Shown in pieces: positions 6,816 through 60,121 of a stretch of 64,000 nucleotides of DNA (its first letter is position 1; every line of letters begins with the position of its first letter). The translations under genes and the position numbers were made by a program. The notes under the pieces are model-generated. The model saw nothing but the letters and a program-made list of their open reading frames with translations. It had not been told where the DNA came from and did not search any database. This DNA comes from Datnioides undecimradiatus (lineage: Eukaryota > Chordata > Actinopteri > Lobotiformes > Datnioididae), in assembly GCA_008933995.1 (NCBI GenBank), contig WARS01000026.1:4416501-4480500 (forward strand). Reading direction: 5' to 3'.

Positions 6816-11417
<4,602 letters not shown>

Positions 11418-55660: not shown

Positions 55661-58600
55661 GTGTGTATGTTTTTTTTTAAATTACATGTTACCTTTTACT
55701 AACCTAAGAAATGATTGTCTATTTGAAAGATAATTAGTCCACACTGACATAATAGAGCCTCTAGATTTCCTCTTTTACTTTTCTTGGGGTTATTTTGGAT
55801 TCTGTGTCCACTATAAGTAGCGGTCACCATTTTGTGTGGATTATTTTACTTTTGTGGGGCTGTGTGTGGATGCAAGTGGATTACAAAAGATCCTGTGAAA
55901 TGGAGCTGAGTGGTGCTGTGGTAACAGGGTCGTGAAAGGCAGCCTTTCAAATGTAATGGACTTATTGAATTTGTTAAGAGCCCTGTGTTAACATCCCCCC
56001 TCACAGGCAGAAGATGGACTATAGCCCCATTATTATGCAGTCCATCTGGACTGTGATGCTCTTGTTTGTGGTCCACCATAAAGTAAATAGCCCAGAGGTA
56101 TGATATTACAGTCAGCCCCATAACCTCACAACGTCATGAGAATGGGGCTGAAATAGCCATGTTGGAGAGGGTTATTGATCTGTTTGTGCTTCACTTTTTG
56201 GCTTGCAGAGGGGGAAGCAGGGAGAAACCCTTTTGGAGAGTAGGTGGAATTGAATGTAAATGATGTGTGGAGTTGTCCCAAGCCAGTGTAGACACTGAAA
56301 AGATGGCAAATTCTCCAAGGAGCACCCTCCTTTTTTCCTCCTTCCTTTTCCTTTTTGTCACATTACAAAATTCTGCCTCCCTGGCTCTTTCCCCTCCCTC
56401 CACATGGACTCAACTCTCAGCATCTCCCTCCCACTTTCCTTCATCTCCCTGCATTTTTTTTTGTTTATTTTCAAATCTATGCGTCTCTCTGGAATCTATT
56501 ATCTGCACATGTAGGAAATTGGAAGTTGCTCCTTATTGACTGTCGACATCCCCCACCCCACTGCAACCCCCTTCTCCAACTGCTCCAGGATGGCTGTGTG
56601 AGAGTGTGCAGCGAGGTGGAGAGGAGAGAGAGAGGGAGGGGTGAGGTAAGGGAAAAGAGAAGGGGAAGGGAGGTGGTGGAGCACTGCAGTGCAGATAAAT
56701 TAATGCAGCAGTCGAGGCTGAGTCAGCAGCACACTCCCAGTTTGGCCCAGTGCCTCCATCAGCTTGTGCCCATGCACGGCTGCCTAGGAGACCGGCTCCC
56801 ACGCTCCAACCCCCCACCAAAAAACAAACAAAAAAACCCACCGAAAATAAGAACATTTTATCCTCTAATAAGGCTCGATAAGACATCTGAGAGCGGTGAA
56901 AGCGCCGGTGGGTGCTGGGGTGTTGCTGCGCGTTCTGCAGAGGAGCTGTCCTTGGTGCTGGACGTGGTACCGCGAGGACGAACTTTCTCTTCCCGGCTCT
57001 GACGCTCCTTGGGTGGGGTTGGCTGGAAAGAGGACTGAGCTGGTTGGCGTTGGGGCAAAACCGAGCCATAAAAATGTGTTTAGTGCGCGGAGGAGCTCGA
57101 CCTAATTCGTAGACAGCCACACCTACACTCCCCTCCTCCTCCTCCTCTGCCCGTTTCCCTCTCTTCCCACCTCCCTTCCTCTGAAGTATGTTGCCACATA
57201 GCATGTGGTTTCTCTGTGGGTGGACTTGGCTAAATATAACGGTTAAACGTGTCACAGTATTTCCTTTGCCATGATTAGCCTTTTAAATTAGACTCTTTGG
57301 CTTTTTGTGCACGTGATAGTGAAAATGGATATGAACCTTTAATCACTGGTGAGATATACACGTAAATACATTTACTGGGACTCTGCAATGCAATGCTTGA
57401 TTTTATGTTGTTCATTTCTACTGTAATTCTCCTTCTCTGTCCCATTTTGCTGCAGTGCTGCTGGTAAAAATCAGACAGGCACTAACTGTGAATAGCCAGC
57501 AGTAAAAGGGGGTTTTCCTACTATCTGATCCCATTTCAACCCTTGACTGAGATCAGAGGGTTGTGTTTGTGCTCTGCTGGTGTTCCCTCCCTTTCTCTCT
57601 CCTTCTCCCCCTCCTACCCTGCTCTCCCTTCCTCCCCAGAGAGTCAGACTCGAGAGGGAGGACCCAGCCCGAAGAGGGATCTCTCCATCATGACTATGGC
57701 CAGAAGCCAAGAGCCCCCACTACATCTGCACCCTCATGCAGCTCACATTTCTCAATGAGGAATGAGGCAGACACAAAACTACCACCTCCCCTTCCATTGC
57801 CAACACCTATACATAAAGATCTACACCACCACTAGTTATAGCCTACAGTTTTCTCCACCTAGCTAAAATCTACCAGCCCCCCCTCTCCACTAAATGTTAC
57901 CTCCATCACTTACTGTAATTTCTGCCAGCCTCATTGCATAACCTTATTGTGCAACAACTTAAATTTGTGTGAACAAAGTGCATGCTATATACAATGTGCA
58001 CTGCAAAGGGAAACAAAACAGATGCCTTTACACCCACACACTGCTTTTTTTTAAAAAAAGATTTTCCAAATCAGCCTGCTGAGCCTGAGCTGTTTTGACT
58101 CCTCATTTACTGAACAACAGCACCCACCTCTGGTGAGCCTTGTGTATGTATGTCATTTTTTAAATTTTACTCAATACTGCCCCATCTTGTCTTTTCCCCA
58201 TCATTGATCAATAAGAAAAAAACATTGCCACTTTATGAGATTTTATTCTAAAATCTTAGATAATTTGAAAATACATTTGCGTCACACTATCAACAGCATG
58301 AAGGTTGATTCACAATGCATTTGAAAAAAAAAAGCCCTAAATTTATTAACTGATCAAATATTTTCATCTTCTCCATTTTATTTATACTGCAGAGATCAAA
58401 ATAAGAAACAATAATAAGGGTTAGGAGTAGGACTATAAACATATAGTGCATGTTCTCTCTGAAAAGAACAAAATAAAGTATGTGAACTTTCGAGTTCTGA
58501 CATTTTAGCATGCCACCAGATGAGAAATTGAACAGCTTGATTTTTGGTCTTCACTTTGTTACCTATTATGGAAAAAGCAATGTTGCTTTTATGAGAATAC

Positions 58601-58715: not shown

Positions 58716-58974
58716 TTAAACTCCTGATGCAAGCTGGACCAGGTCCTCATGACATCTGTAGGTAAGATGATACAATATATAATAAATGTTTGCAGTCAAA
58801 GAAAACGAAGAGCCAGCCAATCTAAAACACTGACACAACTTGTGAAAAAAAATTACACGAAGGTGATAAAGTCGCTCTATGTTAATATAAAATATATGAC
58901 TGATGTGACATCTTAATGATTGTAACTGATGGCAATACAGCTCTTCTATCACTCTCTCCTCATTTCTATACAAT
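58716..58974 (-). CDS. gcgl: Putative C-terminal exon(s) of the glucagon-like precursor, alternatives
   Basis: Two acceptors in the same phase follow exon 3: one with the exon starting at 58974 ([13 protein letters not shown]...) and one starting at 58755 ([13 protein letters not shown], stop 58718-58716). Reading through from 58974 gives a 165-aa precursor but passes an AT-rich stretch that looks intronic. Direct use of 58755 gives 92 aa. A weak donor (CT|GTATTG) after IEEL would join both blocks in frame. The sequence alone does not choose. Confidence 0.45.
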
Positions 58975-59886
58975 CTGCGGTTAAATACATACATGCCATC
59001 ACAGATAAAACAGCTTTGCTATAAATGTCGCTTTTTCAACTCACCCTTCTCGTTTGGTGCTGGCCAGCCACTCCACGAAATCTTTAGCCTTAATCTTATC
59101 AAGGTAGTGGGTGAAATCGCTGGTGAATGTCCCATCCGAATGCCTTTTTAGGTTCTGGATACTCTTTTGTCCTTTTTCCATCTGATATAAATGCCATCTA
59201 AGAAAATGAGTGGTGATGAGTAAAAGTTCCTCAAATAACATTAAATTTTCAGTGTTGTACATTATTGCCACAAGTTTCACATACTTATGTCACAAAAGAT
59301 GTCAAAAGTTTAAGACAGTATATCTATTGTTTTGCTTCCTGTATAAGGAAAGGAGGGGAAAGGAGGTTTTTCCTTGCCCTCATCATTAAGTGCTTGCTCA
59401 GGGTGGAAATTGTTTGTAATTAATATAAAGCATACAGTCTAGACCAGCTCTGTATATTAAGTTATATACATTAAGTGCACTGACATAACCTCTGTTGTGT
59501 GCTATACAAATAAAATGTATTTGAATGTAATTAAATAAATAGCTATATTTATATTATATTAATGGGTATATATTTATTTAAGTACTACATTTTTGAGGAG
59601 ACAAATGGATACATTAATTGAAACAGTTGTTCTATGTCTATTGTCACAGAATGTCTTAATTTTGCTCAGTGATACAAAATTTAAAAGTGGTGCTTTATGT
59701 TCAAACTTGCAAGTGTCCAGTTATACAGAACGGGGTCTCATACATACCTGGATGCTCTAGTTTTATCTACAACCATCTCTTTACTGCATGAACAGAGGAA
59801 CAGGACCAACACACACAACACGTGTGGGCTCATCCTCAGGTTACCTTGCAAAAACAATACCAAGAACACAACAACCCTAGTTTACC
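58716..59886 (-). CDS. gcgl: Preproglucagon-family precursor encoding a single 29-residue glucagon-like peptide (gcgl/gcrp-like)
   Basis: Coding begins at ATG 59833-59831. Exon 2 is 59886-59748 (86 nt coding; [16 protein letters not shown] is a signal peptide). Exon 3 is 59197-59045 and joins in phase (AG|A gives Arg). It codes a short spacer ending NLKR, then the hormone, which starts [15 protein letters not shown] and ends [11 protein letters not shown], followed by Lys-Arg. The 29-residue length and dibasic flanks equal those of glucagon; His1, Gly4, Phe6, Asp9, Asp15, Phe22, Trp25 and Leu26 are kept, while position 3 is Asp. No GLP-1 or GLP-2 exon follows, unlike gcg. This fits the glucagon-like/related peptide gene known from birds, frogs and fish and absent in mammals. 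The hormone would act through a class B GPCR. The 3' end is uncertain (separate entry). Confidence 0.85.
59045..59197 (-). CDS. gcgl: Hormone exon of the glucagon-like gene
   Basis: 153 nt: acceptor TTTTCTTAG before 59197, donor GTGAGT after 59045. One exon holds the propeptide tail, the whole hormone and the KR cleavage site, as in the glucagon exon of gcg. Confidence 0.9.
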
Positions 59887-59945
59887 CTGTAGAATTAGAT
59901 AAGAAAACATTGCATTTTCAAGATTAGAAAAGATAAGAAACTCAC

Positions 59946-60121
59946 CTTGGGGAAATTTAACAAGAGTCCAGTGAATTGCTGTTGTATTTGCTTGTTTGGT
60001 GCACATGCAGTGTAATATTGACGAAGCCACAAACAAGCTCCTCCAAACCTTGAAACAGCACCTTGATGATACCCAGGGACTGGACTAAACTGCAGGGACC
60101 GACCATCTCTGTCACTTTATA
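59946..60121 (-). promoter_or_regulatory. gcgl: Putative promoter and noncoding exon 1 of the glucagon-like gene
   Basis: On the minus strand TATAAA occupies 60121-60116. A donor AAG|GTGAGT follows at 59946/59945, so a noncoding first exon of roughly 140 nt would start about 30 nt past the TATA box and splice to 59886. Glucagon genes likewise have a noncoding exon 1. Just upstream lies an imperfect palindrome GTGACCTATATGTCAC near 60139-60154. No signal peptide is encoded in this exon. Confidence 0.5.

Follow-up and report, generated by a model that had tools for sequence, protein, structure and literature searches.

Does the fish Datnioides undecimradiatus keep an intact gene for GCGL? This hormone, also called GCRP or exendin-like, is a known relative of glucagon that was lost in mammals and was described in 2012–2013. 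It was described by Park et al. 2013 and, reportedly, by Wang et al. 2012, and our literature searches turned up few papers on its fish form. The question is raised by a small gene, gcgl, that lies just beyond scn8a in a stretch of 64,000 nucleotides, hereafter the window (contig WARS01000026.1, positions 4,416,501 to 4,480,500; C469:4416501-4480500 in our numbering of the 581-Mb assembly GCA_008933995.1). Our analysis showed that this gene is almost certainly an intact gcgl (GCRP) ortholog whose hormone most likely acts on its own receptor, and it is the only copy found at the sensitivity of one protein search, which a diverged second copy could escape. The gene is a new example of a hormone already described, with relatives already in the databases.

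Gene Structure and Precursor

The gcgl gene is located on the minus strand and has four exons and three introns, all of them GT...AG by splice sites read from the sequence. Its features, in window positions, are as follows.

60116-60121, minus strand: TATA box TATAAA of the putative gcgl promoter (consensus match only; about 110 nucleotides upstream of the leader ATG)
59946-60006, minus strand: 3' part of the leader exon, from the in-frame upstream ATG at 60006 to the donor at 59946; the frame MCTKQ... runs on into the signal-peptide exon
59748-59844, minus strand: signal-peptide exon with the likely start ATG at 59833, coding 28 residues plus two bases, with a strongly hydrophobic core
59045-59197, minus strand: hormone exon of 153 nucleotides, coding the spacer, Lys-Arg, the 29-residue hormone and Lys-Arg (open frame, Pfam)
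58716-58755, minus strand: last coding exon, with the C-terminal tail and the stop (tails alike in database orthologs)
58342-58382, minus strand: candidate polyadenylation signals AATAAA at 58382-58377 and 58347-58342 (consensus match only)

A first-pass annotation, made from the letters of this DNA, had set the outer limit of the gene at 60121, which is the first base of the TATAAA box 60121-60116. It had also joined a signal-peptide exon in phase to a hormone exon at 59748/59197 and read a 29-residue peptide with Lys-Arg on both sides, and our reading agrees on both counts and adds the strand, minus, which that annotation had left unstated. A donor GT follows 59748 and an acceptor AG precedes 59197; a further acceptor precedes 58755, and the stop codon ends at 58716. 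Three of the nine exon-1/exon-2 joins that we tried near 59748/59197 gave the hormone frame, and of these it is 59748/59197 that has canonical GT/AG flanks. The spliced precursor has 92 residues in an open frame, with one 29-residue hormone between Lys-Arg pairs. A chance open reading frame (ORF) as the origin of the gcgl frame was rejected on E-values, because Pfam Hormone_2 matches the 92-residue precursor with E=1.9e-10 and database proteins match it to E=3.1e-42.

Starting from the upstream ATG 60006 (59946-60006 plus 59844-59834), 24 extra residues (MCTKQANTTAIHWTLVKFPQGNLR) would stand ahead of the signal peptide. A start at the equivalent ATG is seen in several database fish gene models; judged by eye, its sequence context seems weaker than that of ATG 59833. 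The intron between the signal and hormone exons contains a dispersed repeat of about 180 bases (59359-59540), of which at least 39 other copies, 69-79% identical, occur elsewhere in the genome (of 772 candidates, 40 were scored).

Identity of the Hormone

Park et al. defined the GCRP signature as K16-M/I17-K18 (PMC3679108). Residues 16-18 of the window hormone are KIK, which fits the signature. We then compared the hormone with published peptides, leaving out the exendin-4 and chimera rows of Park et al. here and in the tree. Identity was 23/29 to chicken, 21/29 to medaka and 20/28 to Xenopus GCRP. It was 19/29 to chicken glucagon (GCG), 18/29 to human GCG and 16/29 to medaka GLP1, and fell to 13/29 for human and 11/29 for chicken GIP. 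The assignment to gcgl/gcrp made in the first-pass annotation is thus upheld by the motif and by the higher identity to chicken GCRP than to the human and chicken glucagons.

In a tree of 96 peptides, built on 29 columns and with few supported forks, the rows nearest to the window hormone were teleost GCGLs. A tree in which all 25 GCGL rows were held together scored better than the free tree, and this grouping was not rejected (p-AU of the approximately unbiased test, 0.893). The cartilaginous-fish proglucagons P0079-P0083 carry an odd glucagon-like peptide of the HAEGTYTSDVDSLSDYFKAKRFVDSL type in second place.

Asp3 and the stretch F-T-H-Y at positions 10-13 had been singled out as unlike glucagon and as likely to alter receptor preference. 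These residues do set GCGL apart from glucagon, but they are ordinary within GCGL: among 81 relatives, Asp3 was found in 66, Phe10 in 72, Thr11 in 75, His12 in 52 and Tyr13 in 70. The 81 were picked by K/R-x-K at 16-18, so counts at those three columns are circular. As for receptor preference, swap experiments point to residues 16-18 as being among the determinants of receptor preference, and positions 3, 5, 12, 21 and 24 were suggested as possible causes of species differences (PMC3679108).

Relatives and Conservation of the Precursor

Searching with the precursor protein, we found 76 relatives (76 candidates scored), of which 61 were from ray-finned fish, six from birds and nine without a name. 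The best match, from Sebastes umbrosus, aligned to 92% of the precursor with 85% identity (E=3.1e-42). The protein of Datnioides undecimradiatus itself seems to be absent from that collection, because no match came near full-precursor identity. A further search added new proteins from its best 120 of 470 matches, and in the resulting 173 proteins the 29-residue peptide was identical in eight, including those of Sebastes umbrosus, Scomber scombrus and Centroberyx gerrardi.

We calculated the mean pairwise identity of each region for the window and 15 of the 23 other alignment rows, all teleost, after dropping six bird or sturgeon rows and P0011 and P0025, which have odd tails. The hormone reached 0.84, the N-terminal Lys-Arg 1.00 and the C-terminal pair 0.70, whereas signal, spacer and tail stayed at 0.51-0.59. 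By this alignment, the profile is that expected of a working hormone precursor.

In the databases, the relatives are called glucagon-1-like, pro-glucagon-like, exendin-3-like or by a generic family name; none of the names shown reads GCGL or GCRP, and many of the gene models are truncated. To this extent the gene is easily missed, as the first-pass annotation held, but 76 relatives do stand in the databases. The gene is misnamed more than missed, because its relatives are annotated in many fish under such names.

Proglucagon Genes and a GIP-Type Exon in the Same Genome

A search of the genome with the hormone exon at E<=1 gave six matches, namely gcgl itself (100%) and five in two proglucagon loci. 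One of these loci, on C486, codes glucagon, GLP-1 and GLP-2, and the other, on C468, codes glucagon and GLP-1. On C469, the contig of the window, no further glucagon-like match to the hormone exon was found at this threshold. The first-pass claim that the precursor has no GLP-1 or GLP-2 holds for the coding exons read to the stop and for the same search of C469, in which gcgl alone was found.

A GIP-type exon was detected at C20:1781615-1781728 with a chicken GIP query (E=1.3e-4). It reads YVESTIGSDIGKIMDSMVQKNFVDFLLNQRKKRS up to its splice donor, which follows an RKKRS stretch. Since two proglucagon loci and a GIP-type exon exist separately in the genome, gcgl is not a broken gcg, nor is it gip.

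Receptors in the Same Genome

A 7tm_2 scan of the genome gave at least 137 exon matches (150 of 217 candidates scored). At C465:7573726-7579209 we found a receptor-type gene whose exons jointly cover 1-429 of the Sebastes 'glucagon receptor-like' protein P0175, with 61-96% identity in each piece. In the 5 kb read, in-frame stops occurred only where alignments overrun exon ends, and the gene is apparently intact. The best 120 of 3223 database matches to its exons came from fish and then from birds, reptiles, amphibians and coelacanth. No mammal was present among the 119 of these 120 that are named, so this taxonomy fits a receptor lost in mammals. Five fish entries among the listed matches, Takifugu included, are named 'gastric inhibitory polypeptide receptor'; they recall the medaka and fugu receptors, which had been misnamed and were corrected by Park et al. 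(PMC3679108).

Solved human structures compared with Sebastes P0175 scored 427 bits for GCGR, 400 for GLP1R and 359 for GIPR. For a second receptor, on C463, human GIPR came first by a small margin, with 447 bits versus 440 for GCGR. Besides C463, further glucagon-family receptor genes were observed on C481, C24 and C465:12654001-12664000, and these three resemble two GCGRs and a GLP2R.

Two systems, GCGL and GIP, are probably present in this fish, because its genome holds a GIP-type exon, a GCGL-type receptor and, on C463, a receptor nearest to GIPR. In the proposal of Park et al., GIP is missing from the teleosts that have GCRP, and GIPR has been lost from them as well, except in zebrafish (PMC3679108). 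A cichlid survey listed GIP together with GCG2, another glucagon gene, which was described as similar to the hormone that mammals lack (PMC4992253), and the finding of GCGL and GIP together in this genome agrees with that survey. Here one genome has gcgl, two gcg genes, a GIP-type exon, a GCGL-type receptor and a GIPR-nearest receptor side by side. Since it appears to hold both systems, the species is a fair one for asking how GCGL and GIP split their work.

Weighing the Explanations

In favour of gcgl/GCRP stand the family motif, the peptide identities, the unrejected GCGL grouping, the separate gcg and GIP-type genes and the receptor-type gene. Several points weigh against it. The gene is known here from genomic sequence. 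The identity margin is modest (chicken GCRP 23/29, chicken glucagon 19/29). The peptide tree has 29 columns; in its free search, three changes are required to explain the GCGL label, and the GCGLs are intermixed with four elasmobranch second peptides and a platypus glucagon. The nearest solved human receptor to Sebastes P0175 is GCGR, which does not itself separate GCGLR from GCGR, and the GCGLR assignment of the C465 gene comes from match taxonomy and naming. Moreover, SCN8A is not named among the GCRP neighbours in the main text of PMC3679108.

One alternative is that the gene is a truncated or decayed proglucagon copy (gcga or gcgb) whose GLP exons are gone, the outcome which the first-pass annotation said would overturn its own reading. 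A single hormone of the same superfamily with a glucagon-like core would agree with this. However, the glucagons of the same genome carry DRK and TRR at 16-18 where the window hormone has KIK, and each of the four published glucagons compared matches the hormone less well than chicken GCRP does. The frame, splice sites and cleavage sites are also all intact. A decayed copy was rejected, with the two proglucagon loci standing separately in the genome, and we regard it as very improbable. The idea that gcgl is in fact fish GIP, merely named differently, is harder still to credit. Both precursors are single-hormone, and in the tree of Park et al. GCRP is closer to GIP than to other members (PMC3679108), but the separate GIP-type exon at C20:1781615-1781728, the start His1-Ser2-Asp3 in place of the Tyr1 of GIP type, and identities of just 13/29 to human and 11/29 to chicken GIP led us to reject it.

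The gene might also be intact but silent, or its pairing with the receptor may have fallen out of use in this lineage. The case is one from sequence, and a dispersed repeat lies in the intron before the hormone exon. However, the 29-residue peptide is identical in eight other database proteins, splice and cleavage sites are kept, and the receptor exons are open too, so we give this only a slight chance. An intact gcgl ortholog is the explanation that we prefer, and the gene is a further example, complete and well formed, of a hormone lost in mammals.

The C-Terminal Lys-Arg and a Possible Longer Hormone

In 80 matched relatives, residues 30-31 were Lys-Arg in 44 and Lys-Gln in 18. Arg31 is replaced in several lineages, such as labrids, halibut, largemouth bass, rainbowfish and others. 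We also picked 21 relatives with a short, apparently spliced tail, of which 12 had Lys-Arg and nine had another pair; among these nine, P0019 has Lys-Lys one position earlier. The pick asked for C or F near the tail start and a minimum length, which left out P0001 (Lys-Arg, very short tail), and some models in the set read through a splice site. The tail is recognisable in the picked models as EGCHEDLLQIAAEV-like, the pick having been made partly on the tail itself. Conservation of the cysteine in these tails is circular, because C or F was required in selection.

Without a cut at 30-31, the hormone would continue through the short last exon, with a sequence like EGC(H/R)EDLLxxAAxV. We tentatively suggest, at somewhat less than even chances, that teleost GCGL is secreted in two forms, a 29-residue form and, where Arg31 is lost, a form of roughly 43-46 residues that carries an unpaired cysteine. 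If this is true, the unpaired cysteine of the long form could give dimers or altered receptor use. In Datnioides undecimradiatus the 29-residue form is expected, because Lys-Arg is kept at 30-31.

The medaka peptide used in the published assays has KQQE as its last residues (PMC3679108). The Oryzias melastigma model P0044 stops there too, at what seems to be the end of the hormone exon. On these gene models, the like ending suggests that the tested medaka peptide lacked the residues of the last exon. The long form may thus never have been assayed, because the test peptide stops at KQQE.

Proposed Route from Gene to Action

Transcription would run from the minus strand, starting near the TATA box at 60121. 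By analogy with relatives, the N-terminal signal peptide would bring the precursor into the secretory pathway, and prohormone convertases would cut at Lys46-Arg47 and Lys77-Arg78 to release the 29-residue hormone. Its C-terminus is predicted to be a free Thr, because it has no Gly after it for amidation. The most likely target of the hormone is a class B receptor of its own, GCGLR/GCRPR, encoded at another place in the genome, and activation of GCGLR would raise cyclic AMP through Gs. Receptor activation with Gs coupling has been reported for the chicken, Xenopus and medaka pairs (PMC3679108), and in chicks central GCGL reduces food intake (review, PMC5089991). We infer secretion, cleavage, receptor pairing and Gs coupling from such published work on relatives.

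Neighbourhood in the Window

The neighbour of gcgl, lying tail-to-tail with it, is the following gene.

16225-51443, plus strand: scn8a (Nav1.6) (outer ORFs; exons partly delimited; Nav1.6 best match, Pfam)

The location beyond scn8a given in the first-pass annotation was confirmed: the last exon matches human Nav1.6 with 763 bits versus 638 for Nav1.2, and an interdomain exon with 249 versus 211. The N-terminal exon is presumably that of scn8a as well, and we take scn8a to adjoin SLC4A8 at human 12q13. The GCRP block of Park et al. includes PDE1B, HOXC13, AQP2, FAIM2, SLC4A8 and others (PMC3679108). These five genes were not recognised in the partly annotated window or in the next 30 kb, where no gene at all was recognised by eye among ORFs of >=100 amino acids. 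Scans of the window against Rfam (gathering threshold) and for tandem repeats (score 100) gave no matches.

Trypsin-like serine protease exons were observed at 6816-9090 on the minus strand (Pfam; structure matches); from the human 12q13 order, we presume that they may be of TMPRSS12 type. The ORF at 791-1051 on the plus strand reads ...YGEESLQADHFNTRLSFGEPHTLWARTGYLGFIKRTELLDASGGE and has no Pfam match; to us it resembles a DIP2-family exon.

Comparison with Known Systems

Like the proglucagon hormones of its own genome, the window hormone is a glucagon-superfamily peptide between basic cleavage sites. It is unlike the glucagons there, which have DRK or TRR at 16-18, Glu3 and Y-S-K-Y at 10-13. 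Compared with the percomorph predictions 'glucagon-1-like', 'pro-glucagon-like' and 'exendin-3-like', the precursor layout is alike, whereas signal, spacer and tail diverge.

Like the GCRP of chicken, Xenopus and medaka, it comes from a single-hormone gene that is distinct from GCG and GIP, and the genome has a receptor-type gene as well (PMC3679108). It shares K16-M/I17-K18 and the core YLDKxKAK(D/N)FVxWL with the published GCRPs, and Asp3 with that of medaka. However, it has Ile17 where they have Met17, and its Asp3 and Glu24 correspond to Glu3 and His24 in chicken. Medaka GCRP as tested runs on to KQQE (PMC3679108), whereas the window hormone has 29 residues followed by a C-terminal Lys-Arg.
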